This document shows, piece after piece, positions 8,143 through 25,131 of a DNA stretch of 64,000 bases. This stretch comes from Brucella pseudogrignonensis (lineage in GTDB: Bacteria > Pseudomonadota > Alphaproteobacteria > Rhizobiales > Rhizobiaceae). Made by a program: the position numbers and the translations under genes. Location: positions 1,106,001-1,170,000 of the forward strand of contig NZ_JAVLAT010000002.1 in the NCBI RefSeq assembly GCF_032190615.1, written 5' to 3'. Positions within the stretch are counted from its first letter, which is position 1. Each line of letters opens with the position of its first letter. The notes under the pieces are model-generated. The model saw nothing but the letters and a program-made list of their open reading frames with translations, was not told the origin of the DNA and searched no databases.

Positions 8143-9093
8143 ATGGTGGAGCGGAATATTGCACTGGCGGATTGGTTGAAGCCGTTTGTTGAGAAGCTAG
8201 GTCACAAAAACGGCGGCAGATATGCCGGTATATGTTTTGGGCCTGATCGGACTGGGTGATCGCAAGAGTATCGAGCCGATGGCGGAACGCATTGCGCCTG
8301 ATCACTACGATCGTCTGCATCATTTCATCTCGGATGGGATTTGGGACGTCAGTCCGTTTGAGACGGAGCTGGCTGTACAGGCTGACAGAATAGTCGGAGC
8401 CTCAGACGCCTTTCGGGTGATCGACGATACGGGTCTACCGAAGAAGGGTGATCATTCGGTGGGGGGCGCCACAATATGCTTCGATGCTGGGCAAACGCGC
8501 CAATTGCCAGACGTTGGTATCGCTGACGTTAGCACGCGAGGCGGTTCCAGTTCCGGTTGGTTTGCGACTGTTCTTGCCGGAAAGCTGGACCAGTAACCAG
8601 GATCGGATGGTGAAGGCTGGCGTCCCCGAGGAGATGTGCTTATCCCCATGGTGTCGCCCCGATTTTTCCGGTTTCCGGTCACGGCAGGCCGCGCAAGCAT
8701 TCGATCCCTGACACCCTGTCGAGGGCGGCCGAAGCGATCCTGGAAGGAGGTCAGTTGGCGTCGCGGAACGAAAGGTCGCCTGACAGCGCACTTTGCTGTG
8801 CTCCGCATTCGGATCGCTGATGGTAGTCCGCACCGTATCTTCGACAAGGGACAGCAACATATGCCGGGCGAAGCAGCGTTAAAGCAGCTGGCAACTGCCA
8901 TCAAAGCCCGATGGGTCTGCGAGCAGGCGCATCAACAAATGAAAGAAGAACTCGGCCTTGATCACTTCGAAGGCCGATCATGGCAAGGTCTGCATCGACA
9001 CGCGCTGATGACAATGATCGCTTATGCCTTCCTTCAACATCAGCGCCTACACCAAGTCAAGCGGGAAAAAAACCAAGAGGCACGGCCCGCCTA
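8143..9093 (+). pseudogene. IS701-family transposase, several frameshifts and an internal loss
   Basis: The gene starts with MVERNIALADWLKPFVEKLG at 8143. It shifts frame near 8213 into PVYVLGLIGLGDRKSIEPMAERIAPDHYDRLHHF. It shifts again near 8460, where GDHSVG should continue as APQYASMLGKRANCQTLVSLTLAREAVPVPVGLRLFLPESW but that part lies in another frame. After VKAGVPEEM a block including one DDE acidic region is lost or scrambled, and the C-terminal part (KARWVCEQAHQQMKEELGLDHFEGRSW, with the last catalytic Glu) is in a third frame from about 8720 to 9093. At least three frame changes make it non-functional. Confidence 0.82.
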
Positions 9094-9200
9094 AACCGAC
9101 ACTGCCAGCCATACGACACGCAGTCATGAACACCCTCCCATCAACGTCAGCCCCAGACGATGTCCGCACTGCTGAATTCGCTTCAGACCGCCAAAATGTA

Positions 9201-9360: not shown

Positions 9361-10008
9361 TCATGTTTTCGTACACTTAAATCGCGATTCAAGTGAGCGC
9401 ATCTGTTCCATATTGAGTGGTCTAATTGCTCTATCATTCAGCAGATAAAACAGTCGTGCTGTTTCTTCGAGTTCTTCCGTCGCATATTGCGCCTCATGTA
9501 AATTACGACCAGAAACCACAGGACCGTGATTCGCCAGAAGCACGGCATGATGATTCTTGGCCATGTCTTTGACTGCATAAGCTAGTTTCTCATCGCCCGG
9601 AGCAAAATAGGGAACCAGTGGCAAGCGCCCTACCCGCATCACATAATAAGCGGTCAAAGGTGGCAGCACATTTTCTGGATCAACATCAGCCATAATGCTG
9701 GCTGCAACTGCATAAGTCGAATGCAAGTGCACAACAGCTCCTGCAGACTGACGCTCGCAATACATACAAGAATGCAAAAATGCTTCCTTGGTCGGTCGGT
9801 CACCGCTTATCAAAGTGCCGTCAGCAGTGCACCGCGAAAGCCTTGCAGGATCGAGAGTGCCGAGCGAGCAATCAGTCGGTGTCATCAGCATCGTGCCATC
9901 GCTCAGCCGTGCACTGATATTGCCTGTAGAGCCAAATGTCAGACCGCGATCAAAGATCGACTTTCCGACGGCGCAGATTTCATCTCGCAAACGGGTTTCT
10001 TCCGACAT
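9361..10008 (-). CDS. otnC: 3-oxo-tetronate 4-phosphate decarboxylase (OtnC), class II aldolase family
   Basis: A 215-residue class II aldolase/adducin-fold enzyme. OtnC decarboxylates 3-oxo-tetronate 4-phosphate to dihydroxyacetone phosphate and CO2. The metal ligands appear as HLHSTYA (two His) and LLANHGPV (third His). The N-terminal signature STGNISARLSDG and the substrate-phosphate loop are family-typical. The start MSEETR (10008) is used because the ORF's longer N-terminus only overlaps the kinase stop. It is the last gene of the operon that begins at 16323; the kinase upstream makes its substrate. Confidence is high for family and good for the reaction, given the paired OtnK. Confidence 0.88.
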   Translation of the reverse strand: MSEETRLRDEICAVGKSIFDRGLTFGSTGNISARLSDGTMLMTPTDCSLGTLDPARLSRCTADGTLISGDRPTKEAFLHSCMYCERQSAGAVVHLHSTYAVAASIMADVDPENVLPPLTAYYVMRVGRLPLVPYFAPGDEKLAYAVKDMAKNHHAVLLANHGPVVSGRNLHEAQYATEELEETARLFYLLNDRAIRPLNMEQMRSLESRFKCTKT

Positions 10009-10016
10009 TATTGCGA

Positions 10017-11273
10017 TCACGCCATCATCTCCCAGGCTTTGATGAAAAATTCATCCGAGCCAAAATTACCCGATTTAAGAGCAAGCCTCACCGGCCCTTC
10101 GCCTGCGGATGTCACAAGCGGCACACCGGGATCAATCTCCCGGCCAATCCAGAAAGCCTCAGCCCCCAGCGCTTGAACCACGGCACCGGACGTCTCACCG
10201 CCAGCAATGATAAAGCGATTATATCCCTGCTTAGAAAGACCAGCTGCAACCTCGCCAAGAAGTTTCTCAACGACGAGACCTGCAGTTTCCCGGCCAAGTT
10301 CTTCTTGTGCCAGTGCAACGATATCAGGCTCGGCAGACGAGTAAACGAGTGGAGGCAATAGGCTATCACGATGTGATCTGACGAAAGCAATCACGTCGCC
10401 GGGTGTGGTTTTTCCGCCGGCAATATCCAATGCATTCAACTGCATTGATGGGACACCATGAACCTTCGCCGTCTCAATCTGTCGCCGGGTTGCAGCTGAA
10501 CACGAGCCAGCCAATATGACGCCGCCGCCAATAGCAATCGGTGTTTCTGAGCGACCACCAGTCTCACGTAGCAGCCCTGACATACGAAAATTTTCGGGCA
10601 AGCCCTGAGCGACCGCAGAACCGCCTGTAACCAGCTTCAAATCACGCACCGCACGCCCGATAGCGCGCAAATTCATATCATCAATCGCATCCACGATTGC
10701 GATCCCATTCAACTCGGCCAGCACATCCGCAATAGTATCTGCTCCTGACGCCACCACCTGATGGGCAACCAGACTAACCTCATTTGCAGATTGTCGTTGC
10801 AGAACACGGACGAGGTTAGGATCGCACATCGGCGTAAGCGGATGGTCGCGCAGCGGACTTTCCGACAGCAGTTGGTTACCAACAAACAAGTGGCCCTGAA
10901 AAACTGTGCGCCCATTGGCCGGAAAGGCGGGACAAGCGATCGTTCGGCTCTCGCCAACAAGTTTCAGCAGTGCATCCGTAACAGGGCCGATATTGCCCTT
11001 ATCGGTTGAATCAAAGGTCGAACAGTATTTGAAGAAGAGCTGTTTTGCACCTGCTTCAAGCAGCAGTTTTGCTGCACCAATCGATTGTTTAATCGCCGCC
11101 TCTGGCTCGATTGTACGGGACTTAAGTGCAATGATCACTGCATCAGCATCACCAAACTGCGATGTATCGTTGGGCAGACCATTGACCTGCACAACATTCA
11201 TTCCTTCACGTGATAGAATAAGGGCAAGATCAGTCGCACCGGTCAGATCATCGGCAATAGCACCAAGAAGCAT
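10017..11273 (-). CDS. otnK: 3-oxo-tetronate kinase (OtnK), DUF1537/four-carbon acid sugar kinase family
   Basis: A 418-residue ATP-dependent acid-sugar kinase. The N-terminal domain begins GAIADDLTGATDLA, the family hallmark, followed by FFKYCSTFDSTDKGNIGP and VACPAFPANGRTVFQGHL-type blocks. The C-terminal nucleotide-binding part has FIIAGGETSGAVVQALG. The ATG at 11273 is preferred to the one at 11279 because GGAG lies 6 nt before it but abuts the other. It phosphorylates a 3-oxo acid for OtnC next door. The family also includes kinases for 3-oxo-isoapionate (OiaK) and D-threonate, so the exact acid is open. Confidence 0.87.
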   Translation of the reverse strand: MLLGAIADDLTGATDLALILSREGMNVVQVNGLPNDTSQFGDADAVIIALKSRTIEPEAAIKQSIGAAKLLLEAGAKQLFFKYCSTFDSTDKGNIGPVTDALLKLVGESRTIACPAFPANGRTVFQGHLFVGNQLLSESPLRDHPLTPMCDPNLVRVLQRQSANEVSLVAHQVVASGADTIADVLAELNGIAIVDAIDDMNLRAIGRAVRDLKLVTGGSAVAQGLPENFRMSGLLRETGGRSETPIAIGGGVILAGSCSAATRRQIETAKVHGVPSMQLNALDIAGGKTTPGDVIAFVRSHRDSLLPPLVYSSAEPDIVALAQEELGRETAGLVVEKLLGEVAAGLSKQGYNRFIIAGGETSGAVVQALGAEAFWIGREIDPGVPLVTSAGEGPVRLALKSGNFGSDEFFIKAWEMMA

Positions 11274-11306
11274 AGTCATCTCCTACTGCATTATCGGAGG
11301 CGCGGC

Positions 11307-12587
11307 TCAATAGAGCCAGCGCGCAGGAACGATAACAATTTGCGGGAACAGCCATAACAGAACCAGAACCGCAAACTGTGCGAGAATGAAAGGGACAGCA
11401 CCGCGCTCCACATCCATGTATCGAACTTTTGCGACCGCGCAGGCCACATTCAGAACGGCGCCCACCGGCGGTGTAATCAGGCTTATTGCAGCCGTCATGA
11501 TGAACATCACACCAAAATAAACAGGGTCAATGCCCGCCTGTTTGGCGATTGGCAGAAGCACTGGTGTCATGATCAGGATAGTCGGAATGAAATCCAGCGC
11601 TGTACCGATCACGATCAACAGCAGCAGCATAACAGCCATCAGAAGCAACGGACTTTCACGCAGTGGACCAAGCCAGCCAACAATTTCGGCTGGAATGTTT
11701 GCAATCGCGATCATATAGGCTGTGATGGAAGCGGCTGCGACCAGAAGCATTACGGCTGATGTCGTCAGCACTGCACTCACAAAGCAATGATAAAGCTTGG
11801 CTAGTGAAATTTCGCGATAGACAAAGCACCCGATGAACAGAGCATAGACGCAAGCGACAACGCCAGCTTCTGTGGGAGTGAATATTCCGGCCTTCAGTCC
11901 GCCAATAATGATAACGGGTAGCATGAACGCAAAGCCTGCATCCATTGCTGCTTTACCAACATCTTTCCAGCTCGAACGAGGCAGAACAGCGGTATTTTCC
12001 TTACGGCTTAGCAACCACCAGGCCACAGCAAGCGAGAGCGCCATTAACAGCCCTGGCACAATACCAGCCATAAACAATCGTGTTATCGAGACGCCACCGG
12101 CAACGCCAAACACGATATATCCGATTGAAGGCGGCAAGACGGGCGCGATGATACCGCCTGCGCTGATAAGACCAGCGGAACGGCCTAGGTTATAGCCAGC
12201 ATCGCGCATGATTGGGATCAGCATGCCTGCCAGCACTGCAGTATCCGCAATCGCCGATCCAGAAAGACTTGCAAGCAGAAGTGCCGTCACAATAGCAACA
12301 TAGCCCAAACCACCTTTGAGATGCCCAACGAGCGTCAATCCGAAATTGACCAAACGGCGCGACAAACCGCCAACATTCATCGCCTCGCCAGCGAGCAGGA
12401 AGAAAGGAATAGCCAGTAGCGGAAAACTATCCGCGCCATTGGTCATTTGCAGCGCAATCAGCTGCCAATCGAGCATTCCAAGCCACCACATCATGGCAAT
12501 GCCGCTGAGGATCAGGCCAAAGGCGATGGGGGTTCCGATAAGAAGTGCTGCAATAAGCACAACGATAAAAACAACAAGCGTGGTCAT
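11307..12587 (-). CDS. TRAP transporter large permease (DctM), acid-sugar operon
   Basis: A 426-residue inner-membrane protein of the DctM family, the ion-coupled translocating subunit of TRAP importers. About 12 hydrophobic segments are visible, with the family blocks AIPFFLLAGEAMNVGGLSRRLV, GSAIADTAVLAGMLIPIM and EAGVVACVYALFIG. The GSGSA-like loop (LASLSGSAIAD) is one of the sodium/substrate regions. It overlaps the DctQ stop by 4 bp. It lies 33 bp upstream of otnK, so uptake and phosphorylation of the substrate are co-expressed. Confidence 0.92.
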   Translation of the reverse strand: MTTLVVFIVVLIAALLIGTPIAFGLILSGIAMMWWLGMLDWQLIALQMTNGADSFPLLAIPFFLLAGEAMNVGGLSRRLVNFGLTLVGHLKGGLGYVAIVTALLLASLSGSAIADTAVLAGMLIPIMRDAGYNLGRSAGLISAGGIIAPVLPPSIGYIVFGVAGGVSITRLFMAGIVPGLLMALSLAVAWWLLSRKENTAVLPRSSWKDVGKAAMDAGFAFMLPVIIIGGLKAGIFTPTEAGVVACVYALFIGCFVYREISLAKLYHCFVSAVLTTSAVMLLVAAASITAYMIAIANIPAEIVGWLGPLRESPLLLMAVMLLLLIVIGTALDFIPTILIMTPVLLPIAKQAGIDPVYFGVMFIMTAAISLITPPVGAVLNVACAVAKVRYMDVERGAVPFILAQFAVLVLLWLFPQIVIVPARWLY

Positions 12588-13090
12588 TTTGAGCGATCCT
12601 CACTGTGCTGATTTTTAGCAAATGTGAAAAGCGCACAAATCAGATCAATGAATGCGACAACCGCGATCATTACACCTGCTATCAGCGGGGCCGCGTAGAC
12701 CACACCCATCGGAATACCTGAAATAGGCGCTTTGTTGGCCATATTGGTGATCGTCTGATCATATGCGCCAGCAACCAGAAAGCAGCAGCAGGCGATGATA
12801 ATTATATTTGTGAGCGCGCGGCAAATGATAGCGGAGGTGCCGGTTAAACGCGCTGTCAGGATATCCACACCGAGATGTTCATGGCGGCGTGCGACGACGA
12901 CCGCACCAACGAATGAAATCCACACAAACATCATGCGGGACACTTCATCCGTGATCGTAATGCCGGTATCAAACCCATAACGCATGACGACGTTCGCAAA
13001 AACCAGTGCCACCATTGTGGCCAGGATCATAGCAAGAAAGGCTTCAAGCGCCTTAAATCCCCAATCTGAAATCTGTTGCAAGACACTCAC
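12584..13090 (-). CDS. TRAP transporter small permease (DctQ), acid-sugar operon
   Basis: A 168-residue four-helix membrane subunit, with FVWISFVGAVVVARRHEHLGVDIL as the DctQ-family signature (Trp in helix 2, conserved EHLGVD loop). It pairs with DctM to form the membrane part of the importer. It overlaps the cyclase stop (4 bp) and the DctM start (4 bp). The interposed cyclase gene between DctP and DctQ is unusual, because the three TRAP genes are normally adjacent. Confidence 0.9.
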   Translation of the reverse strand: MSVLQQISDWGFKALEAFLAMILATMVALVFANVVMRYGFDTGITITDEVSRMMFVWISFVGAVVVARRHEHLGVDILTARLTGTSAIICRALTNIIIIACCCFLVAGAYDQTITNMANKAPISGIPMGVVYAAPLIAGVMIAVVAFIDLICALFTFAKNQHSEDRSK

Positions 13091-13761
13091 AGATTGATCT
13101 CCCCCTCAATTGCGAAGACACGCGACGGCGCGCCATCGGCATTAACAACCTTGAGCGGAGCAGCGGAAAGCAAAAACCGTTTGCTTGTCAGGGCTGCTGT
13201 ATTGACGACATATTCAATCAGCGTAACGCCTGCACGCAGCAAAACATCATGCGTGACATGCTCTTCGTCAGGAACACGAATACCGTCGAGAAGAAGTCGG
13301 ATTGGGTAGTCTTGCGGGAAGTCGACTGCAAGTGCGCGGGGTTTTAACTTCAGAAGATACTCTGATGCCTCACGCGTCAGCCACGGCGCATCGGTCCAGA
13401 ATTCGCGGGTTTGATAATCACGGCGCTGATCCCACTGCGTTGAAAGCAGCAATATATCGCCTTCCTTACCACCCGGATTTGTAGAAGCCAGTTGTTCTGC
13501 GGTGATCGCACTATTCTCTGGCACGTGAGACAAATCGAACAGGCGACACGCACCGACGACATTTTCAAGCTGTGTCGCCTCAATCGTAGGCGCACCGGCA
13601 ATAAAGTGCGCCTGAGCATCGACATGCGTGAAACCGTGGCACGTGGTTGCCAGCGACGTCACGCGGAACTGATCCCCGCCCGACTTGTCACCCTTTACGT
13701 GCACCTGTGGGTTCCATCGAAAATGATCGGATATAGGCATGCTGAGATCAACGATGCGCAT
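13087..13761 (-). CDS. Cyclase-family metal hydrolase (kynurenine formamidase-like fold)
   Basis: A 224-residue protein of the bacterial putative-cyclase family, Mn/Zn-dependent hydrolases with a swivelling beta/alpha fold. The metal motif HGFTHVDAQAHF matches H-G-T-H-x-D-x-P-x-H loosely (Thr preceded by Phe, Pro replaced by Ala). ALAVDFPQDYP and the C-terminal INT/VNTAAL block fit the family. The ATG at 13761 is chosen because AGGAAAG lies 5 nt before it; the longer frame runs back into the dctP end. The operon suggests hydrolysis of a lactone or amide of the imported acid, which is inference only. Confidence 0.75.
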   Translation of the reverse strand: MRIVDLSMPISDHFRWNPQVHVKGDKSGGDQFRVTSLATTCHGFTHVDAQAHFIAGAPTIEATQLENVVGACRLFDLSHVPENSAITAEQLASTNPGGKEGDILLLSTQWDQRRDYQTREFWTDAPWLTREASEYLLKLKPRALAVDFPQDYPIRLLLDGIRVPDEEHVTHDVLLRAGVTLIEYVVNTAALTSKRFLLSAAPLKVVNADGAPSRVFAIEGEINL

Positions 13762-13847
13762 CTGGCTTTCCTGCTCAAGTATTTCACATTCAGATGCGTC
13801 AAATCTGAATGGCATGACACTGCGACGAACTAAAATGAGGCATGACG

Positions 13848-13872
13848 GGCGCAGATTTTTATGATCTGCGCC
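13848..13872 (-). other. Hairpin between dctP and the cyclase gene
   Basis: Perfect 9-bp stem (GGCGCAGAT with ATCTGCGCC) and a 7-nt loop, 22 nt past the dctP stop. There is no T-run behind it, so it more likely protects or trims the transcript end of the binding-protein gene, which is needed in excess, than terminates outright. Confidence 0.55.
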
Positions 13873-13894
13873 GCAGTGATGGGATGAGTTTATA

Positions 13895-14896
13895 TCAGCC
13901 GAGTGCTGCGATGCGATCTGGCAATTCTGCGCCAAACTGGGTAGCAAAGGCTTCTCGTACTTTGTCGGCCACAACAGCGCGCAGCGCTTCACGATCCGGC
14001 GTTTCGACAACTTCCATCCCTTCGGATTTAAGTGTCTCCAAGCTGGAAATCTCACGCTCAGCGTTCATCTGGCGTTGCTTGACAGCTGCTTCACGCGCAA
14101 CCGCTACCAAGGCCTCCCGCAATGCCGGGTCCATTGCATCAAGCTTCGTCTTGTTCGTAACCAATGGCGATGTGGTAAACGCGTGCTGGGTGAGTGAAAG
14201 GTAACGCTGCACTTCGTTGAACTTCGAATTGAGGATCAGTGTGGTGGGGTTTTCCTGACCATCAATCGAGCGCATTTCAAGCGCTGTGAACAACTCAGTG
14301 AAAGCCATAGGTGTTGGAACGGCTCCAAGCAGTTCAAATGCTCTGATATGTGCCGGGTTCGGCGTGGTCCGAATTTTAAGGCCTTTCAGGTCGTCAACAC
14401 CATGAACAGGACGACGGCTGTTGGTGACATTGCGCCAGCCAGTCTCCCATGTTGCCAGCGCAACAATGCCTGACGGCTCAAGCTCTGCACGCAACTCATC
14501 ACCAATTTCTCCGTCTAAAACCGCTGCAACATGGTTACGATCTTTGAACAGGAATGGCAGATCAAGCACATTGAGCTTTGGCGCAAGCCCGGTAAAAAAT
14601 GGATTCCCTGTCACCATAATATCAATCGTGCCACCGCGCACCGCATTGATCATGGTGGAATCATTACCAAGGATTCCGTTGGCAAAGACCTGAACACCAA
14701 GCGCGCCATCTGTGCGCTCACGAAGCGCTTCATTCATCCACAAGCCAGCATCTTGCCAGCTATCGGTATCCGGGTGTGGATGCGCCAGCTTTAACACCTG
14801 TGTTGACTGCGCTCGACCAATTGCCGGTGCGGCCAAAAGAGCTGCACCCGAAGCCATGACGCCCATGAAACGGCGACGATTAATGTTCATGATCAT
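13895..14896 (-). CDS. TRAP transporter substrate-binding protein (DctP), acid-sugar operon
   Basis: A 333-residue exported binding protein. The N-terminus NRRRFMGVMASGAALLAAPAIGRAQ has a twin-arginine-like stretch before the hydrophobic core, so Tat export is possible. DctP blocks include LKLAHPHPDTDSW, LNVLDLPFLFKDRNHV, DLKGLKIRTTPNPAHI (the Arg that salt-bridges a substrate carboxylate) and RSIDGQENPTTLI. The strong GGGAGG site sits 5 nt before the first ATG. The ligand is a carboxylate; operon partners suggest a hydroxylated C4-C5 acid. Confidence 0.9.
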   Translation of the reverse strand: MIMNINRRRFMGVMASGAALLAAPAIGRAQSTQVLKLAHPHPDTDSWQDAGLWMNEALRERTDGALGVQVFANGILGNDSTMINAVRGGTIDIMVTGNPFFTGLAPKLNVLDLPFLFKDRNHVAAVLDGEIGDELRAELEPSGIVALATWETGWRNVTNSRRPVHGVDDLKGLKIRTTPNPAHIRAFELLGAVPTPMAFTELFTALEMRSIDGQENPTTLILNSKFNEVQRYLSLTQHAFTTSPLVTNKTKLDAMDPALREALVAVAREAAVKQRQMNAEREISSLETLKSEGMEVVETPDREALRAVVADKVREAFATQFGAELPDRIAALG

Positions 14897-14919
14897 GTTT
14901 TCCTCCCAGATGATCTTTG

Positions 14920-16323
14920 TTATGTGCGCGGCTTGTCAGCCCCGAAAAAGAATGCGTCTTGCCAAAGACGAAGTTGCCAAAGAGCACTTGTCTCAGGAAT
15001 TTCGAGGTCAGCGATCGTAATGGCCTTCCCGGCCTTGACCGAACGCTTAAGCGTCTTGTTCGCAGCCAGATAAAAAGGCGCAGGCGCTTCGCCAGTCAAA
15101 GGACGTGCTGGCAAAATAGCCGAGGACACCCCAGTTACCGAATGGTGATGACCACCCATTTCGAGGACATGCCCAGCTTCCAGATCAATATCAGCAATTG
15201 CAACCAAATCGACATGATGCGCTGGGATAATTGCGCCTGACGAAAGGCCTTTCATGCCTGCTTCAAGAACAGAAGTTGCAGCTTCCAAACCAAGCAGATG
15301 ACGCGGGATGTAAACCATCGCGCATTTCAGGTCACGGCTGACGACATGACCTTTTTCTTCAAGCATTTTCCACGTTGCAATATCGTCACAACGAATAATC
15401 ACAAAAACGCCGCCCGCGAAACTGACCTCACCCGGATTTCGCAGGCAATGAAAGACATCAAGAGTGCCAGTTTCTTCGAGAATTCCGCCCTCCGATTTTG
15501 AGCAGAACACCGAAGGGACTTCGCCAATACGTGCAATGGGGGCATGAAGCGCGGGCGCATCAACACTCAGTCCAAGCGCATTTGCAACGACACTCAATTC
15601 GCACAGATCAGGGACAGCGCGTTGCGGCAAATCAGAAGCAGCCAATGCACGACCAGCCATAACATCCTGCATGCTACGATCAGCAGACTGCGAAAATTGC
15701 CCAAAGTCTGGCGCATCAACAGTTACGCCATTGCTTGTGAGCTTACCCGTCTCAGCGTCAAAAACGAAGTCATACTCGCTGGATTTTCCAGCTGCAATAA
15801 TCTCAAATCCTAGCAACTGCGCCCAAGTAATCAGTCCAATGAGCAAGCTCGGCTGATCGCCGTCAACTGGCGTCACTATCAACCGCTTTTCTCGCGCCAT
15901 GGCAGCGAGGCCCGGTCCTATGACGCTATCAACCTCTTTCGAGACAAGTGCTACGTGATGACCGGCCTCAATAGCCAAACGCGCATGACGTGCACCGGCC
16001 TCTGGATGGCCAGTCGCTTCAACAACAACGTCGAACGGAAGATCTGCAACAAGCGCAAAATCAGCAACAGCGATGTACTTGCCAGCATCCCATGCGGAGC
16101 GCGCCGCCTCAACGGTATCACAAACGCAAACACTATCAGCAGCCACACCAGTTTCAATAATTGCTTTCGCAGCAGCCGCAGCAGAAATATCAACGGCTAC
16201 ACGCGCACGCATCAGAGGCACTCGCAACCCTTGCGCCAGAAAGCTGCGGCCAAATCCTCCCGTACCGATTATGCAGGTCTCGATGGGGCGGTGGCTGGCA
16301 TCGAAATAGGCGTGATAATTCAT
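14920..16323 (-). CDS. DXR-II/DRL-like oxidoreductase (Rossmann plus SAF domain), first gene of the acid-sugar operon
   Basis: A 467-residue NAD(P)-dependent enzyme often annotated as homoserine dehydrogenase or SAF-domain protein. The Rossmann motif IGTGGFG is at residues about 19-25, then VVVEATGHPEAGARHARLAIEAGHHVALV, GDQPSLLIGLITWAQLLGFEIIAAGK and a C-terminal SAF domain from about residue 370 (DIDLEAGHVLEMGG, VKAGKAITIADLEIPE). These blocks match the Brucella DXR-II (DRL) family, whose members catalyse reductoisomerisation. Linkage to OtnK/OtnC suggests an acid-sugar oxidoisomerase instead. The start is uncertain: MNYHAYF at 16323 is chosen; 16347 and 16365 are alternatives, and none has a clear ribosome site. 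Confidence 0.75.
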   Translation of the reverse strand: MNYHAYFDASHRPIETCIIGTGGFGRSFLAQGLRVPLMRARVAVDISAAAAAKAIIETGVAADSVCVCDTVEAARSAWDAGKYIAVADFALVADLPFDVVVEATGHPEAGARHARLAIEAGHHVALVSKEVDSVIGPGLAAMAREKRLIVTPVDGDQPSLLIGLITWAQLLGFEIIAAGKSSEYDFVFDAETGKLTSNGVTVDAPDFGQFSQSADRSMQDVMAGRALAASDLPQRAVPDLCELSVVANALGLSVDAPALHAPIARIGEVPSVFCSKSEGGILEETGTLDVFHCLRNPGEVSFAGGVFVIIRCDDIATWKMLEEKGHVVSRDLKCAMVYIPRHLLGLEAATSVLEAGMKGLSSGAIIPAHHVDLVAIADIDLEAGHVLEMGGHHHSVTGVSSAILPARPLTGEAPAPFYLAANKTLKRSVKAGKAITIADLEIPETSALWQLRLWQDAFFFGADKPRT

Positions 16324-16370
16324 CCGGACTACATCTTTCGCAATCATTCTCAATCGCGTCGCCATCAACT

Positions 16371-16576
16371 TTGTATGCAATAACTGCAAACAACAGTCTA
16401 ACTGCGACACGTCACACGAGACATCATCATTCTGTATGCAATTTGACCAGATCAGACAGATAAAACTGCCAAAAAAATCGATCTCCTCACCATTTCCGGA
16501 TTAATTGCATGCAAAATAATATGTGTCAATACTGTTGCAGGCGCATTTCGTAGCATTTAAGATGGATTGCATGCAA
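16371..16576. promoter_or_regulatory. Four TTGYATGCAA palindromic operator sites in the divergent promoter
   Basis: TTGTATGCAA at 16371-16380, CTGTATGCAA at 16432-16441, TTGCATGCAA at 16505-16514 and TTGCATGCAA at 16567-16576. The start-to-start spacings are 61, 73 and 62 bp, close to whole numbers of helical turns, so bound regulators would lie on one DNA face and could loop the DNA. The last site touches the ribosome site of the GntR gene (autoregulation), and the first lies just before the operon's first codon. Confidence 0.75.
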
Positions 16577-16587
16577 AAGAGGTTGTG

Positions 16588-17256
16588 ATGGATTCTTTAG
16601 AGAATGATGAGTTATGGCCACGCGGACAGCGTTCGACCTTCGTAACGCAACATATCCGGGATATGATTGTTTCAGGCGAGCTACCAGGGGGCGAGAGAAT
16701 TAACGAACGAATTCTCACTGAGCGTCTTGGCGTATCGCGCACACCCTTGCGAGAAGCTTTCAAAATCCTTGAAGGCGAAGGATTAATTGCGATTTCTCCA
16801 AATCGCGGCGCAACAGTTGTCAGCCTTTCAACTTCAGATGTAGAGGCGGCGATAGATGTATTGATAGGACTCGAGAGTGTTGCTGCTGAGCGGGCCTGCG
16901 AAAAAGCCAGCCGCGCAATGATCAAGCATATCGAAGAGTTGCACCAGAAAATGGTCGCGAGCTTTCGCGCTCAGGAACTGATGGAATATTTCCATATCAA
17001 TCAGACCATTCATCAAGAAATCGTCGATTGCGCGCAAAACGCGACGCTATCGCGTGTCTACGCAGCTGAAAGTGCAAGAATTCGACGTTATCGTTATGCG
17101 GGCAATAGAAGGCCAGAGCGCTGGGAGCGCGCTGTATTTGAACACGAACAAATATTGGATGCACTTAAGCAACGCGAAGGACCGCTACTGCGCGAGGTCT
17201 TGCGCTCTCATCACCTCAAAGGTTGGTCGGTTACCAGAAGTGTGCTCGAAAGCTAA
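16588..17256 (+). CDS. GntR-family regulator (FCD type) of the acid-sugar operon
   Basis: A 222-residue regulator. The winged helix is at about residues 12-75 (GGERINERILTERLGVSRTPLREAFKILEGEGL) and is followed by an all-helical FCD domain with the metal/ligand His positions in HINQTIHQEIVD and FEHEQIL. The ATG at 16588 follows AGAGG by 5 nt; an earlier in-frame TTG lies inside the operator palindrome. Divergent orientation and the shared operators point to control of the operon at 16323-9361 and of itself. Confidence 0.88.
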   Translation: MDSLENDELWPRGQRSTFVTQHIRDMIVSGELPGGERINERILTERLGVSRTPLREAFKILEGEGLIAISPNRGATVVSLSTSDVEAAIDVLIGLESVAAERACEKASRAMIKHIEELHQKMVASFRAQELMEYFHINQTIHQEIVDCAQNATLSRVYAAESARIRRYRYAGNRRPERWERAVFEHEQILDALKQREGPLLREVLRSHHLKGWSVTRSVLES

Positions 17257-17734: not shown

Positions 17735-19420
17735 CTACTGCCAATGGCGACATTTTGATGTTTTGCCGATGCCAGGATTGAAGCTGTTAGTCGGATCAAG
17801 TGAGCGATAAAAATTCTTTAACGCGGGTTTAGCATCGTAAAGATGCCCGACATTATGCTCGGCTGGATATTCTGCGCCGCGTGCATCCAGAAGAGCACAT
17901 ATATCGTGTTCGAATGCTTCGCAGTGAGTTCCCTTTTTAACGAGATATTCCTGATGCATTACATGGCAAAAGAAATGTCCTACATAGATTTTCAGGGCAA
18001 TTTGATTATCTAGAGAATCTGGAAGAGTTTCGAACCAGTCAATCGTGTCGCGAGGCAGCGCAACGTCAAGTGCAACGATATCTTCAACGGTACGCGAATG
18101 AACAGCGCGATAACGCACAACAGCACTCCCAACGGTAAAGCGGTTGAGAAACGCTGCACTGCCTTCTTCATTGCTGCACTCAATGAAGCTACCGCTCGCA
18201 CTCGGAAAAATAGTGGCGAGATAATCGCGCATCTCAGTGATGCATGCGTCACCAGTGCGGATCATCAGGTGATGAGGATAACGATTTCTATAATCCACCA
18301 GCCGTGCCGGCATATGCTCAGGCAAAAGGCGGCTGACGAATTGAAGGAGCTTATCTGAAACTGATTTGCCTAACCCCAGCTTTTCTGTCACGCCGTCGAA
18401 CCAGCTTTTTGCCTTAAAGGCACGTGGAACGTTCAGAGTGCCAAAGGTACGGATGAAAAGATAAAGATCTTTGCCCCATATCTGTGCAGCGCGGAAAGCA
18501 TCGGTATGCATATACTCACCGGCGATCGGCAAGTTTTTAAAATTCGCCAAAATATGACGGCGAATGGTTTGGAGTTCAGCAGGATCGTGAGATCCAATGT
18601 AAAATACCTTTTCCTCTTTTGCAGTCGGGAATGTGTCCAGCCGAAGTGCAAATATGCCAATCTTGCCAGCGGAACCTGAGGCTTCGTAATGTCGACGAGG
18701 ATCCGCGTTGAAGCGGGCTGGTGTTGTTGCCGCAATATCCCGAACATGTTCCTTGTACTCGATATCTGAGGCCTGTGCACCTTGCGGAAAATCAATATCG
18801 TCGTCGGAATATTGCCCGGCATCCAGACGGGAAAGTATCTCTTTAGGATTACTACCGAGACGAATTCCTAAATGATTAACAAGATGCAGTTTGCCATTCG
18901 CATCGACCTGCGCAAAGAGAGCCAGCTGAGTGTAAGCTGGACCGCGCTGAACGAGAGACCCACCAGAATTGTTGCAGATGCCTCCAGTTACAGAAGCGCC
19001 AATGCAGCTTGAACCGATAACCGAGTGCGGCTCGCGGCCAAGCGGTTTGAGGCGTCTTTCGAGCTGGTCAAGTGTTGCACCCGGCATGCTCAGAATTTGT
19101 CTGCCGTGGTCTATAAGGTCAATTCTCCTATTACGAAGGGTGGAGACTATGACGATGGGGCGATCATAGCCGTCACCAAACGGCGTGGAGCCGCCGGTTA
19201 GACCAGTATTGGCTGCCTGGAAGATGATCGCCACATCTGCTGCCACACATGCTTCAAGCACACGCCACTGTTCAACAAGCGTCCCTGGCTCGACGGCAGC
19301 CAGAACCGTGCCGTCGCCATAACGGTAGCCTTTACGAAAACGACGGGTAGAGCTGTCGCTGATATGAAGATAACGACGGCCAACGATTTCGCGCAGATTC
19401 TTAATAAGCGTTTGGGTCAT
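17735..19420 (-). CDS. dld: Quinone-dependent D-lactate dehydrogenase (Dld) family FAD enzyme
   Basis: A 561-residue peripheral membrane flavoprotein that oxidises a D-2-hydroxy acid and passes electrons to quinone. The FAD-binding PCMH domain covers about residues 35-260 (FQAANTGLTGGSTPFGDGYDR, SVIGSSCIGASVTGGICNNSGGSLV). The Dld-specific membrane-binding domain fills the C-terminal half and ends with DPTNSFNPGIGKTSK, as in E. coli Dld, so it is full length. It is the last gene of the second TRAP operon, 81 bp after DctM. Known Dld enzymes use D-lactate; here the neighbours raise the option of another 2-hydroxy acid. Confidence 0.87.
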   Translation of the reverse strand: MTQTLIKNLREIVGRRYLHISDSSTRRFRKGYRYGDGTVLAAVEPGTLVEQWRVLEACVAADVAIIFQAANTGLTGGSTPFGDGYDRPIVIVSTLRNRRIDLIDHGRQILSMPGATLDQLERRLKPLGREPHSVIGSSCIGASVTGGICNNSGGSLVQRGPAYTQLALFAQVDANGKLHLVNHLGIRLGSNPKEILSRLDAGQYSDDDIDFPQGAQASDIEYKEHVRDIAATTPARFNADPRRHYEASGSAGKIGIFALRLDTFPTAKEEKVFYIGSHDPAELQTIRRHILANFKNLPIAGEYMHTDAFRAAQIWGKDLYLFIRTFGTLNVPRAFKAKSWFDGVTEKLGLGKSVSDKLLQFVSRLLPEHMPARLVDYRNRYPHHLMIRTGDACITEMRDYLATIFPSASGSFIECSNEEGSAAFLNRFTVGSAVVRYRAVHSRTVEDIVALDVALPRDTIDWFETLPDSLDNQIALKIYVGHFFCHVMHQEYLVKKGTHCEAFEHDICALLDARGAEYPAEHNVGHLYDAKPALKNFYRSLDPTNSFNPGIGKTSKCRHWQ

Positions 19421-19501
19421 AGCCGCTCAAACCTCGTCAAATAATTGCATCATGCCCACCCCTGACTTGGGGCAGGCAAGTTTCGTTGAAAGCTTGGCGC
19501 G

Positions 19502-20779
19502 CTAGCGACCCATCAGGCCAGGCAATGTCATGCTGATTGCTGGCACAAAGGACACAATCATCAGGCAAACAATGATGACCAACACAAATACGATCAGCGG
19601 TCTGAGCATTGCAGTGACCGAGCATCCTGCGATTTGTGCAGCAGCAAACAGGTTGACTCCGAGCGGCGGCGTTATCATTCCGAGTGCCAAGTTTATCACC
19701 ATTACGGTTCCAAAATGCACTGGCTCAATGCCCACACGAACCGCAGCTTCTTGCAGAATTGGAGCCAGAACAATAATACTTGCACCAGTCTCAATAAACA
19801 TGCCGACGGTAAAGAGCATCGCGTTGATTGCCAGCATCAATGATACGGGACCGTCGAAGGTGCTGGTAAGCCAAACTGCTGCTGCATCAGGAACACCCTG
19901 TCTGTTCAGAAGATAGCCCATCAACGTTGCAACGCCGATAATGAACATAATTACGGCAGAGGTGATAACCGTCTTGCGAAAGGCATTCGCAACATCTGTC
20001 AAGTTCATTTCACGATGCAAAAATAGCCCCACCAACAAGGCGTAAATAACCGCTATAACACTGGCTTCGGTTGGGGTTGTGATGCCGCCATAAATGCCTC
20101 CCATGATGAAGATTGGCATAAGCAATGCCCATATGGCACGACGCGTTGCAATGAGACGTGGCTGGCGACCTTCTCCATCGCGTTTACCCCACCCCTTGAT
20201 GCGGCACCAGATAATTGCTGTTAACAACAGTGCGCCTGCGATCATGAAACCAGGCAATACACCAGCAAGGAACAACTCCGGTATCGAAGTCTGGGTAGCA
20301 ACGCCATATAGGATCATCGGGATGGATGGCGGGAAGATCACGCCAAGTTCTGCGGACGCAGCCATAAGGGCTGCTGCAAAGCCTACCGGATAGCCATAAT
20401 TGCGCATAGCGGGAATAAGAACAGCGCCAACTGCAAATGTTGTGGCAACGCTTGAACCCGAAATCGCGGAGAACAGCATACATGTCAATACGCACGTCGC
20501 TGCAAGTCCACCCTGAACCTGCCCGACAAAAGAACGTGCGAATTCGACCAGCCGACGCGAAAGCCCCCCGACTTCCATGAGGTTACCCGCAAGGATGAAA
20601 AAAGGGATGGCGGCAAGTGGAAACTTGTCGAGCGCTATGAATATCTGCTGGGGAATGATGATCGATGGCAAGCTGGTGAAGCCAATAAGCCCGATCATTG
20701 AGGCAAGACCTACGGAAATAGCGACGGGCACCGAGATGGCAAACAAAACCATCATGGCAGTAATCATTGCAGCGGTCAT
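19502..20779 (-). CDS. TRAP transporter large permease (DctM), second system
   Basis: A 425-residue, about 12-helix membrane subunit. Blocks AIPFFILAGNLMEVGGLSRRLVEFARSFVG, LFSAISGSSVATTFAVG and TPTEASVIAVIYALLVGLFLHREM are typical DctM. It overlaps DctQ by 4 bp. Sequence differs clearly from the DctM at 11307-12587 although the architecture is the same, so this is a separate paralogue and not a recent duplicate. Confidence 0.92.
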   Translation of the reverse strand: MTAAMITAMMVLFAISVPVAISVGLASMIGLIGFTSLPSIIIPQQIFIALDKFPLAAIPFFILAGNLMEVGGLSRRLVEFARSFVGQVQGGLAATCVLTCMLFSAISGSSVATTFAVGAVLIPAMRNYGYPVGFAAALMAASAELGVIFPPSIPMILYGVATQTSIPELFLAGVLPGFMIAGALLLTAIIWCRIKGWGKRDGEGRQPRLIATRRAIWALLMPIFIMGGIYGGITTPTEASVIAVIYALLVGLFLHREMNLTDVANAFRKTVITSAVIMFIIGVATLMGYLLNRQGVPDAAAVWLTSTFDGPVSLMLAINAMLFTVGMFIETGASIIVLAPILQEAAVRVGIEPVHFGTVMVINLALGMITPPLGVNLFAAAQIAGCSVTAMLRPLIVFVLVIIVCLMIVSFVPAISMTLPGLMGR

Positions 20780-21267
20780 CCTGCGTTCTCCCTGCCCAAA
20801 TCAATGAAGTGAACGATTGCTCCGAGCGCGGCGAAAACCGATCCAACCGGAATTGCGGCATAGCCCCATGCAATTGAGATATCGAGCCCAGCCATTTCCT
20901 GAAAGCGAACGCGCTGGGTCATGGCGAGACCAAACCAGAAAAGGGTCCCGAACATGATCAGGCATGAGATAAGTGTTGTTGCCTCAATGGAACGACGAAT
21001 CCGGCCCGATGTGCTTTCTCGCGCCAGATCAATAGCAATGAAGGCACCTCTACGAAGTGCCGTAGAGATTCCCAGAAGTACCATCCAAACCAGACAAAGC
21101 CGCGTTAGTGCCTCAGACCATGTAGACGGTGAGTGAAAAACGAAGCGCCCCATCACCTGCCAGAAGCTTGATGCCACCGCAAGAGCGAGCGCTAGAGAGG
21201 CGGCCGCAGCCACCCCCATCGCTAAAGCCGCGTCCATTTGACGGACGAATCTGGACATTGAGTTCAT
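20776..21267 (-). CDS. TRAP transporter small permease (DctQ), second system
   Basis: A 163-residue four-helix subunit with WSEALTRLCLVWMVLLGISTALRRGAFIAIDL, the DctQ signature with its conserved Trp. It overlaps the DctP stop by 4 bp and the DctM start by 4 bp, giving the usual dctPQM order on the minus strand. Together with DctM it forms the membrane complex that accepts substrate from the product of 21264-22244. Confidence 0.9.
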   Translation of the reverse strand: MNSMSRFVRQMDAALAMGVAAAASLALALAVASSFWQVMGRFVFHSPSTWSEALTRLCLVWMVLLGISTALRRGAFIAIDLARESTSGRIRRSIEATTLISCLIMFGTLFWFGLAMTQRVRFQEMAGLDISIAWGYAAIPVGSVFAALGAIVHFIDLGRENAG

Positions 21268-22244
21268 TGAGCTTTCCAGTCACGGATGCGCTGTAAAAGC
21301 TCAATACCGAACTGATCTTCGAACCCCTTATTCGCGCCAGCCATTGCATCACGATAAGCGTCTCGGTTTTCGATCTCGATGACTTCAATTCCGCGCTTAC
21401 GTAGCGTCTCAATACCGACGGTGTCATCTTTTTCGACCCGTGCACGGTTTGCGGCGGTTGCAGCAACACCAGCCTCATCAACGGCTTTTTTCTGCTCATC
21501 GGTCAGGCTTGCAATGAAGTCGGGATTGCAGACAAGAATACCTGGTGAATAAACATGCCGCGTGAGGTAGAGATGTTTCTGCATCATATCGAGATTGTTT
21601 GACAGAATAACAGGAACCGGGTTTTCTTGCCCATCAATCGTGCCTTGCTGCAATGCAGACGGAAGTTCAGAGAACGCCATCGGCGTCGGCAAAACACCCG
21701 CAGCCTGCCAAGCCTGCATATGTATCTGGTTTTCCATCGTGCGAATTTTCATGCCTCGCAGATCTTCTGGCGAAGAAATGCTTTTCGCACCAGTTGTCAG
21801 ATTGCGGAAACCATTCTCAGTCCACGCAAGACCGTAAAGGCCACGGGCAGGAAAGAGCGCAAGTAATTCCTTTCCAACTTCGGAATCCAACACGCCACGG
21901 GCATGTGCATAATCATTAAATAAGAAAGGAATGTCGATAACCCGTGTTTCAGCAACGAAATTACCGAGAGGGCCTGCGGAGCCGATAGCGCATTCCTGTG
22001 AGCCCAGCTGCACGCTCTCAATGGCCTCACGTTCATTGTCCAGGCGCTGGATTACAACATTTAATGTACCATTCGAGCGTTCTTCAGCGACTTTTTTGAA
22101 CGCAAGTGCTCCCTCGCCAAAGTGACTGTCGAGCGGTGACGAGTGGGTTATCGTCAGTACGGTCTGAGCCGACGCGGTGAACGTGGTACCAGCCAGCAGC
22201 AAGCTGGCCAGAAGTGCTGTTTTCACTGAATTTTTAGTTTTCAT
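21264..22244 (-). CDS. TRAP transporter substrate-binding protein (DctP), second system
   Basis: A 326-residue periplasmic protein. The Sec signal peptide is residues 1 to about 26 (ALLASLLLAGTTFTASAQ). DctP blocks: TVLTITHSSPLDSHFGEGA, TRVIDIPFLFNDYAHARGVL, SSPEDLRGMKIRTMENQIH (substrate-carboxylate Arg) and QQGTIDGQENPVPVIL. GGAGGAA lies 5 nt before the ATG. The ligand should be an organic acid processed by the following dehydrogenases. Confidence 0.91.
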   Translation of the reverse strand: MKTKNSVKTALLASLLLAGTTFTASAQTVLTITHSSPLDSHFGEGALAFKKVAEERSNGTLNVVIQRLDNEREAIESVQLGSQECAIGSAGPLGNFVAETRVIDIPFLFNDYAHARGVLDSEVGKELLALFPARGLYGLAWTENGFRNLTTGAKSISSPEDLRGMKIRTMENQIHMQAWQAAGVLPTPMAFSELPSALQQGTIDGQENPVPVILSNNLDMMQKHLYLTRHVYSPGILVCNPDFIASLTDEQKKAVDEAGVAATAANRARVEKDDTVGIETLRKRGIEVIEIENRDAYRDAMAGANKGFEDQFGIELLQRIRDWKAQ

Positions 22245-22299
22245 GAGTATTCCTCCTCCTTGTAGAATGCGGTATGGGCAAGGCTTTCAGATAGTGCTG

Positions 22300-23814
22300 C
22301 TATAGCGCTTCTTCAGGCAATAAAGCCGCGGGAAAGTTCTGATAGCTGACCGGCCTGAGAAAACGTCGGATCGACATCGTACCAACGCTTGTTGCCCCAA
22401 AATTAGTTGATGCTGGATATGGCCCCCCATGTACCATTGAATCAACCACTTCAACTCCCGTTGGAAAGCCGTTGACAAGAACACGTCCGGCCTTGCGCTC
22501 TAGTACAGGCAGAAGCGCTTTGGTTGCATTTATATCGGCGTCATCCATGTGGATTGTTGCTGTCAGCTGACCTTCGAGGTTTCGTGCCAGTTTTTGCATG
22601 TCCTCAAGCGATTTTACACGAACGACAAGACCGAGTGGTCCAAACACCTCTTCAGATAAAGTGGGATTCTCAAAAAAGCGCTCTATAGTCGTCTCGTACA
22701 AATTGGGGTTCGCTTCACGTCCCTTCGACACAGTCTCGTAGACGACGTCAACGGCATCACTCGTTTGGAAGCGTTCTTGTCCAGCGCGATAGGCTTGAGC
22801 GATCCCGCCAGTGAGCATTAGCTGTGATCCGACGCTTGATAGCCCCTCTTTTGTCGCGGCAACAAATCCATCTGCATCAGAATTATCCAGCACAATGGCA
22901 ATACCCGGATTTGTGCAGAACTGACCTGCACCCATCAGCAACGAACTTGCCCAGCCGTCACCAATTGACTCTGCGCGTGCCTTCAGAGCTTCAGGCAGGA
23001 TAAACATTGGATTGACGCTGCCCAGCTCTCCAAAGAACGGAATAGGTTCTGCACGTTGTGCGCACAGATCGAATAATGCACGTCCACCATTCAGTGAGCC
23101 GGTAAAACCGACAGCTTTGATCAGCGGATGCGTGACGAGCGCACTGCCAACATGGCGATTGCCTCCCTGCACAAGGCTGAATACGCCCGGATTGATCCCC
23201 ACTTTTTGAATAGCTGCATGGATAGCCTCAGCGATGATTTCGCCCGTACCTGGATGAGCGGAATGGCCTTTCACAACAACAGGACAACCCGCTGCAAGGG
23301 CAGCTGCCGTATCACCTCCTGCTGTCGAAAAGGCGAGCGGGAAATTGGAGGCTCCAAAGACTGCGACCGGTCCAATAGGACGTTGCATCAATCGGATATC
23401 AGGACGTGGCGAAGGCAGACGATCCGGCATAGCTGGATCATGACGCTTGTCAAGATAATCGCCCTTTTCAATATGATCGGCAAAGAGACGGAGCTGGCCG
23501 CACGTCCGACCACGCTCGCCCTGAAGACGGCCAACGGGCAGTCCTGTCTCCCGAGTACCAATTTCAGTGATGGCATCGCCGCGCGCTTCAATCTCATCCG
23601 CACTGGCACGCAAAAAGCCTGCACGCTCTGTAGACGAGGAATAGCCATAGGACCAGAAAGCATTTTCCGCTGCTTCAACAGCACGATTTACAAGTTCCAC
23701 TGTTCCCAGCGAGAATTCAGATGCATCACCAGAAACCGGCTCGTTCTTAAAAGTTTCATCTGTAGCAATCCATTCGCCAGCGATAAGATGCTTTCCATGC
23801 GGTTTGAAAGTCAT
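22300..23814 (-). CDS. 2,5-dioxovalerate (2-oxoglutarate semialdehyde) dehydrogenase
   Basis: A 504-residue aldehyde dehydrogenase of the class that ends pentonate, glucarate and hydroxyproline pathways by oxidising 2,5-dioxovalerate to 2-oxoglutarate with NAD(P)+. The general base lies in FFGELGSVNP and the catalytic Cys in GAGQFCTNPG. The family marks are SNFPLAFSTAGGDTAAALAAGCPVVVKGH and the C-terminal GGPYPASTNFGATSVGTMSIRRFLRPVSYQ. Length matches characterised members (about 525). It sits 56 bp upstream of dctP and 24 bp downstream of the iron alcohol dehydrogenase. Confidence 0.88.
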   Translation of the reverse strand: MTFKPHGKHLIAGEWIATDETFKNEPVSGDASEFSLGTVELVNRAVEAAENAFWSYGYSSSTERAGFLRASADEIEARGDAITEIGTRETGLPVGRLQGERGRTCGQLRLFADHIEKGDYLDKRHDPAMPDRLPSPRPDIRLMQRPIGPVAVFGASNFPLAFSTAGGDTAAALAAGCPVVVKGHSAHPGTGEIIAEAIHAAIQKVGINPGVFSLVQGGNRHVGSALVTHPLIKAVGFTGSLNGGRALFDLCAQRAEPIPFFGELGSVNPMFILPEALKARAESIGDGWASSLLMGAGQFCTNPGIAIVLDNSDADGFVAATKEGLSSVGSQLMLTGGIAQAYRAGQERFQTSDAVDVVYETVSKGREANPNLYETTIERFFENPTLSEEVFGPLGLVVRVKSLEDMQKLARNLEGQLTATIHMDDADINATKALLPVLERKAGRVLVNGFPTGVEVVDSMVHGGPYPASTNFGATSVGTMSIRRFLRPVSYQNFPAALLPEEAL

Positions 23815-23837
23815 GATTCTTCCCTACAGATTGACTA

Positions 23838-24974: not shown

Positions 24975-25131
24975 GTGCCTCTCCCTTTGTATTCCAAAAT
25001 GGCAATCCGAACACGAATTAGAACGTAAACGCGATGGATGTCTTTTACTGCGGGGCAAAATACCGGTGACAATTACCGTGTAAATCCGCTATTTCTTGAT
25101 ACAGGTATAACGAAAAGGAAATTCTGTATCG

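Follow-up and report, generated by a model that had tools for sequence, protein, structure and literature searches.

In a 64,000-nucleotide stretch of the Brucella pseudogrignonensis genome (contig NZ_JAVLAT010000002.1; the window, to whose positions all coordinates refer), seven genes for a DRL-like oxidoreductase, a TRAP transporter, a cyclase-family hydrolase and the enzymes OtnK and OtnC form an operon. Judging from sequence comparisons, we consider it reasonably likely that this operon encodes a self-contained pathway for the catabolism of a four-carbon sugar acid, in which the DRL-like enzyme replaces both the usual dehydrogenase and the isomerase OtnI and yields 3-oxotetronate. The formation of 3-oxotetronate in one step is suggested by the constant presence of OtnK, by the missing dehydrogenase and isomerase genes, and by the loss of the residues that anchor fosmidomycin in DXR-II.

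The seven open reading frames span 9361-16323, all on the minus strand, in the order DRL-like, DctP, cyclase family, DctQ, DctM, OtnK and OtnC. A reading made earlier from the letters alone (the sequence-only reading) had named the same families in the same order, and only the end that it gave, 16576, did not hold, as it falls past the DRL-like gene in the intergenic region. The DRL-like gene (14920..16323) encodes a putative NAD(P)-dependent oxidoreductase of 467 amino acids, the proposed first catabolic enzyme, which matched Pfam PF21135 DRL_cat with 82 bits (cut-off 27) and no NCBIfam model at 0.001. OtnK, the predicted 3-oxo-tetronate kinase (10017..11279), and OtnC, the predicted 3-oxo-tetronate 4-phosphate decarboxylase (9361..10020), scored far above the cut-offs of the NCBIfam equivalog models that assign their functions (NF043035, 546 bits against 350, and NF043034, 325 bits against 250), in support of the OtnK/OtnC route to dihydroxyacetone phosphate proposed before. 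In a tblastn search at 1e-12, none of LtnD, DenD and OtnI was found within 7 kb of the window OtnK, so that the DRL-like enzyme does occupy, as had been suggested, the place of the usual tetronate dehydrogenase, and that of OtnI as well. Overlaps of 4 bases join the cyclase-family gene to DctQ, DctQ to DctM, and OtnK to OtnC.

Association of the DRL-like clade with OtnK

The neighbourhood comparison that the sequence-only reading had proposed for this DRL-like clade was carried out on 72 distinct loci, namely the window, 28 loci from species genomes, 17 from plasmids and 26 from further genomes; the duplicates L049, L050, L060 and L070 were removed before counting, and 20 plasmid records were examined among the 107 with a DRL-family match. 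In 25 of the 72 loci, the DRL-like gene has OtnK no more than 7 kb away, and OtnC adjoins OtnK in all of these except L013 (24/25). LtnD, DenD or OtnI occurred within 7 kb of OtnK in a single one of the 25 (L052), and OtnI itself likewise in one. For comparison, 97 OtnK places outside the source genome were drawn from the class and family samples, and 80 regions covering 81 of them were fetched; the places left out include G476 and G487, which are the clade loci counted as L066 and L068. Two of the 80 regions themselves contain the clade and were excluded from the comparison. Among the remaining 78, LtnD, DenD or OtnI was present somewhere in the region in 44, and OtnI in 37 (Fisher p 1.3e-6 and 3.4e-5 for the contrast with the clade loci, with kinship ignored and some regions ending at contig ends). 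The OtnK neighbours were identified by tblastn with reference proteins, as greedy calling of open reading frames missed OtnK itself in 21 of the 80 regions; a search around 16 OtnK loci for Rossmann proteins yielded frames that were for the most part spurious, and its results were discarded.

The 25 OtnK-linked loci are not copies of one arrangement, and they use differing transporters of the TRAP, TTT and GntP types. The TRAP transporter and the cyclase-family gene are found in the window, L004, L032 and L051, and a TTT transporter lies between the DRL-like gene and OtnK in L013, L015, L018-L022, L033 and L039. The order TTT transporter, DRL-like, Asp/Glu-racemase-family protein, OtnK and OtnC occurs in L068, L078, L083 and L084, and in L066 without a TTT match. 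OtnK and OtnC are divergent from the DRL-like gene, with a DeoR regulator, in L037, L082 and L088; the DRL-like gene directly precedes OtnK in L006; and OtnK stands together with a PdxA-like gene in L036 and L052. L038, on a Klebsiella plasmid, combines the DRL-like gene with OtnK, OtnC and a gluconate-type symporter in one cluster that has neither LtnD nor OtnI. When the OtnK-neighbour label was followed on the starred branches of the tree, at least seven changes, gains or losses, were required. Therefore, the pairing of OtnK with the DRL-like gene has been made or lost repeatedly and was not inherited as one unchanged block.

The association also holds at the level of whole genomes. OtnK was detected above its cut-off in 30 of the 30 searched genomes with the clade, even where it is unlinked, as in G688, where about 60 kb separate OtnK and OtnC from the DRL-like gene; G698, which carries the clade (L072) and is 72% complete, was left out of this test. 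In the family sample OtnK was present in 9/9 genomes with the clade vs 34/112 without it, and in the class sample in 6/6 vs 43/379 (both compared by a Fisher test that ignores kinship). The sister clade dlo87, which served as the control, shows no comparable link: OtnK was found in 10 of its 29 genomes, or in 8 of 27 once the two in which the window clade occurs as well are subtracted. For this control and for the 112 genomes, sample membership was deduced from the genome numbering (G000 plus G385-G680, G385-G534 and, by the same count, G385-G504), the non-matching genomes not all being listed. The presence of OtnK in 30/30 genomes, together with the repeated linkage, links the clade to 3-oxotetronate metabolism. 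No relative of OtnK was found in the viral contigs scanned with it.

The DRL-like protein and its relation to DXR-II

The window protein resembles DXR-II/DRL (3UPL, 3UPY) in its fold, its DRL_cat domain and the equivalents of Lys191, Glu232 and His323. In a quick tree, however, the window-type clade of 72 sequences forms a group of its own (branch support 100), and the 23 canonical DXR-II sequences stand apart, set off by a branch whose support is 99. We then used the Lys191/Lys193/Thr229 criterion of PMC3847144, with the DXR-II residue numbering checked on the canonical copy L047. Lys191 is retained in 72/72 window-type sequences, and the two fosmidomycin anchors are replaced in all of them, Lys193 by Ser, Thr or Gly and Thr229 by Asp. 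Lys129, Asp239, Arg295, Lys324 and His394 are invariant in the 72, Asp154 is kept in 71 and Arg225 in 70. Such a residue pattern would fit a non-phosphorylated acid as the substrate. The sugar-acid gene context further separates the clade from DXR-II. As for the start of the window protein, an upstream GTG would extend the gene to 16410, and Met1-Asn2 of the shorter form is invariant across 43 aligned relatives.

PMC3847144 also described DLO1 and DLO2, two families of uncharacterised DXR-II-like oxidoreductases, which share with our clade the lack of the DXR-II residues. At position 229, DLO1 has Leu, Ile or Val and DLO2 has Pro, Ser or Ala, unlike the Asp of our clade; this comparison was made by the published residue pattern and not on a tree. 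The dlo87 sister clade matches the DLO2 pattern at this position. Members of the window-type clade are found under the labels flagellar biosynthesis protein FlgA, SAF domain-containing protein and homoserine dehydrogenase, and the FlgA and homoserine dehydrogenase labels, which are frequent on plasmid members, have no backing from the gene context.

The DRL-like protein is very probably not an isoprenoid DXR-II, an identity that we rejected on the basis of the separate clade, the lost residues and the canonical genes of the same genome. The sequence-only reading had named a place inside the DXR-II clade, in a genome lacking any other DXR, as the finding that would tell against it; the protein fell outside that clade, and the source genome has two canonical DXR-II copies. 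DXR-I was not found in this genome. In the genus sample, 35 of 35 genomes gave a strong canonical-type match, and the window type was present in 5 of 35. One of the canonical copies of the source genome (L047:8586-13299) stands among E1 and lipoyl-E2-type genes of a thiamine pyrophosphate-dependent dehydrogenase, and on a Priestia plasmid (L086) DXR-II is accompanied by pyruvate dehydrogenase-type genes, sugar-binding regulators and an FGGY kinase. These two contexts may point to a reverse, catabolic use of DXR-II.

Transport, regulation and related gene clusters

The solute-binding protein DctP (13895..14896, PF03480, 294 bits), the small permease DctQ (12584..13090, PF04290, 98 bits) and the large permease DctM (11307..12587, PF06808, 401 bits) all exceeded the cut-offs of their Pfam models and make up a complete TRAP transporter. 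Arg155, Arg176 and Asn216 of DctP, invariant across 37 aligned relatives, align with the carboxylate-binding triad given in PMC11668362. According to that paper, most of the closed structures among the homologues of its protein hold pantoate or erythronate, and the ligands were mostly co-purified. The nearest solved chains by sequence are 4pdd, 4pdh, 4p9k, 4p47 and 4nq8. The close solved relatives are TRAP solute-binding proteins, and the title of one of them, 7bbr, names a sugar acid binding protein. The ligand in 4pdd, 4pdh and 4p9k is presumably D-erythronate; no paper was found under five target names of the solved relatives, and PMC5812351 contained none of six terms sought in it. The cyclase-family metal-dependent hydrolase (13087..13815, PF04199, 78 bits; its start may be the ATG at 13815 or that at 13761) has 1r61 as its best solved chain and contains HGFTHVDAQAH, which matches the spacing HxxxHxDxxxH that we take to be the motif of the family. 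Since its gene is found in only 8 of the 72 loci (window, L004, L005, L014, L017, L032, L051 and L053), it is optional, and our guess is that it opens a lactone or an ester.

Divergent from the operon lies a GntR-FCD regulator (16588..17256, plus strand, PF07729 and PF00392), which, like its probable sites, was absent from the sequence-only reading. Its start at 16588 was judged by sequence; a TTG alternative at 16567 would overlap one of the sites. ATTGCATGCAAW occurs exactly twice in the 4.45-Mb genome, both times between the GntR and DRL-like genes, as ATTGCATGCAAA at 16504..16515 and at 16566..16577, and is probably the GntR operator. The palindrome ATTGCATGCAAT was found in the gap between the two genes in many close relatives, and the core TTGCATGCAA in 18 of 27 such gaps. 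The density of core sites was 5.2 per kb in the gaps (35 sites) vs 0.009 per kb in the rest of these loci (5 sites). The nine gaps without TTGCATGCAA belong to regulators 38-58% identical to the window GntR; the regulators of L010, L013 and L015 fall in the same range of identity, yet their gaps contain TTGCATGCAA. In six genomes (the source and five relatives), 12 of the 13 distinct ATTGCATGCAAW sites lie in the gap, and a reversed-pattern control gave 1 site across the six. Such a nearly exclusive placement suggests that the regulon is probably confined to the divergent unit, with little else. No distant isomerase was seen under the same operator in the source genome, in a search for exact ATTGCATGCAAW matches that weaker sites would escape.

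The source genome contains further clusters for related acids. In a second OtnK/OtnC/TRAP cluster, on contig C3 (L045:5170-11751), the oxidoreductase scored 366 bits (cut-off 347) as a member of the 3-hydroxyacyl-CoA dehydrogenase family, and the 13.5 kb examined contained no OtnI; this is another apparent way to 3-oxotetronate, and the family of its oxidoreductase makes simple oxidation at C3 a live alternative. The D-apionate pathway proceeds through ApnO, OiaK and the RuBisCO-like OiaX. Our operon shares with it the logic of oxidation, phosphorylation by a DUF1537-type kinase and decarboxylation, and differs in its oxidoreductase, which is of PF21135 and not PF16896, and in its decarboxylase. 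A D-apionate-type cluster (L046) with OiaX (790 bits, cut-off 700), a PF16896 protein and an OiaK-like kinase (480 bits, below the cut-off of 700) is separately present in the genome, and the window kinase reaches 121 bits against the same OiaK cut-off. D-Apionate was thus rejected as an unlikely substrate of the operon. Downstream of OtnC, at 8222-9094, transposase-like fragments were recognised by eye from their translations. On the other side, a separate hydroxyacid-type cluster (17735-26070) comprises a D-lactate dehydrogenase, a second TRAP permease with its DctP, an aldehyde dehydrogenase, an iron-type alcohol dehydrogenase and a LysR gene at 25132.

Proposed pathway and alternative explanations

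In the pathway that we favour, the TRAP transporter would import a C4 sugar acid, and the DRL-like enzyme, acting as an NAD(P)+-dependent dehydrogenase or oxidoisomerase, would convert the free acid to 3-oxotetronate in one step, thereby standing in for LtnD or DenD plus OtnI, as the genome context suggests. OtnK would then phosphorylate 3-oxotetronate, and OtnC would decarboxylate the product to dihydroxyacetone phosphate and CO2, with GntR controlling the divergent unit. Three reactions would fit equally: oxidation directly at C3, oxidation at C2 together with tautomerisation and, for a branched acid, oxidation accompanied by a carboxylate shift. Since the data demand no rearrangement, a linear tetronate such as L-erythronate or D-threonate is somewhat likelier than a branched acid; it would be oxidised at C3, or at C2 and then tautomerised in the same site. 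The known routes, set out by Zhang et al. in 2016, are said to cover L-threonate, D-erythronate and D-threonate, and L-erythronate would be the obvious gap. With the L-threonate/D-erythronate pathway (LtnD or DenD, OtnI, OtnK and OtnC) the operon shares the OtnK and OtnC equivalogs, an acid-type transporter and a regulator of its own; it differs in having the DRL-like enzyme in place of nearby LtnD, DenD and OtnI and, in some relatives, a cyclase-family hydrolase. A classical ltnD/otnK/otnI/denD/otnC operon in Brucella is reported in PMC10580937.

Several observations weigh against this pathway. A PdxA-like gene is near the DRL-like gene in 30 of the 72 loci, with OtnK also near in 2 and not near in the other 28, and the scheme needs no second dehydrogenase; such company could mean that the DRL-like enzyme does something else. 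Two PdxA-like proteins were scanned, and neither reached a cut-off: their scores were 234 and 244 with the PdxA model (cut-off 290), and 193 and 182 with that of D-threonate 4-phosphate dehydrogenase (cut-off 583). The PdxA-like protein may instead serve a parallel branch, in which another isomer is oxidatively decarboxylated to dihydroxyacetone, as is hinted by a dihydroxyacetone-kinase-family gene in L036 and L080. Neither OtnK nor PdxA is near in 19 of the 72 loci, some of which are at contig ends, and the arrangement is rare when viewed from OtnK (the 2 of 80 regions). In L034, L052 and L057, the distance between the DRL-like gene and a classical cluster is about 6-9 kb; the cluster of L034 is just past the 7-kb limit and that of L057 is 8-9 kb off, so that in both of these loci OtnK is more than 7 kb from the DRL-like gene. 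In addition, an unlinked isomerase could help: the source genome has a single OtnI/Hyi-type match at 1e-30 (L219), flanked by the genes for glyoxylate carboligase and tartronate semialdehyde reductase, and this Hyi-type protein exceeds the cut-off of the OtnI model (381.5 bits against 325).

That isomerase is central to the view that the DRL-like enzyme replaces LtnD or DenD alone, oxidising at C2 only, with 2-oxotetronate then converted by an unlinked OtnI or hydroxypyruvate isomerase. An OtnI/Hyi-type protein is indeed present in 29 of 30 clade genomes, but hydroxypyruvate isomerase is also a member of this broad family, the source copy belongs to the glyoxylate carboligase operon, OtnI is near OtnK far less often in clade loci than in the others, and the operator has no exact match beyond the locus; we regard this view as distinctly improbable. 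The sequence-only reading had proposed a branched or otherwise rearranged acid that is oxidoisomerised. In such a reaction of a branched acid, the CH2OH of 2-(hydroxymethyl)glycerate would be oxidised to the aldehyde and a 1,2-carboxylate shift would give 3-oxotetronate, the substrate of OtnK; the shift would be the DXR rearrangement run backwards, with a branched acid in its free form as the substrate, and the clade would be a family of sugar-acid oxidoisomerases. The atom mapping appears consistent on paper, the DXR-II fold with Lys191 is retained, and the handling of related acids by L045 and L046 makes a distinct substrate plausible. However, no result of our analysis speaks for a branched substrate, and in DXR the migrating group departs as an aldehyde, so that a migrating carboxylate would call for a different mechanism. 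In our search of open-access papers, names for 2-(hydroxymethyl)glycerate occurred in only two, both of which deal with meteorite or astrochemical molecules. The DRL fold of the earlier proposal thus stands, whereas the branched substrate and the skeleton rearrangement gained nothing from it, as the fold alone is uninformative, and we hold this reaction to be unlikely. That the protein is a third DXR-II, making methylerythritol phosphate and lying in a sugar-acid operon by chance, is scarcely credible in view of the two canonical genes, the genus-wide occurrence of the canonical type against 5/35 for the window type, the separate clade that has lost Lys193 and Thr229 throughout, and the constant company of OtnK.

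Some of these loci have features of their own. A kinase-free cluster of GntR, a PdxA-like gene, a TTT transporter and the DRL-like gene recurs in L035, L040, L041, L054, L055, L079 and others. The TIM-barrel protein of some PdxA-type loci was considered as OiaC and rejected; that of L036 matched only Pfam AP_endonuc_2, with no NCBIfam match at 1e-20. The OtnK/OtnC loci L177, L181, L202, L209, L210 and L211 contain an isopropylmalate/tartrate-dehydrogenase-like gene, named by eye, with 37-55% identity to the L177 protein.

The sequence-only reading had not recognised the gene combination as a described pathway, and our search of titles and abstracts in the open-access literature, a scope that leaves most subscription papers outside, likewise found no paper on the pairing of a DRL-like enzyme with OtnK. 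DXR-II has a considerable number of relatives whose function is not known, and one clade of them can now be tied to a defined metabolite, 3-oxotetronate. If the branched-acid reaction were true, it would be, to our knowledge, the first catabolic route for such a branched C4 acid and would tie an isoprenoid enzyme fold to a catabolic rearrangement of the carbon skeleton. If the pathway that we favour is true, the fold that makes methylerythritol phosphate would also work in catabolism, and the misleading annotation of the clade would be corrected.

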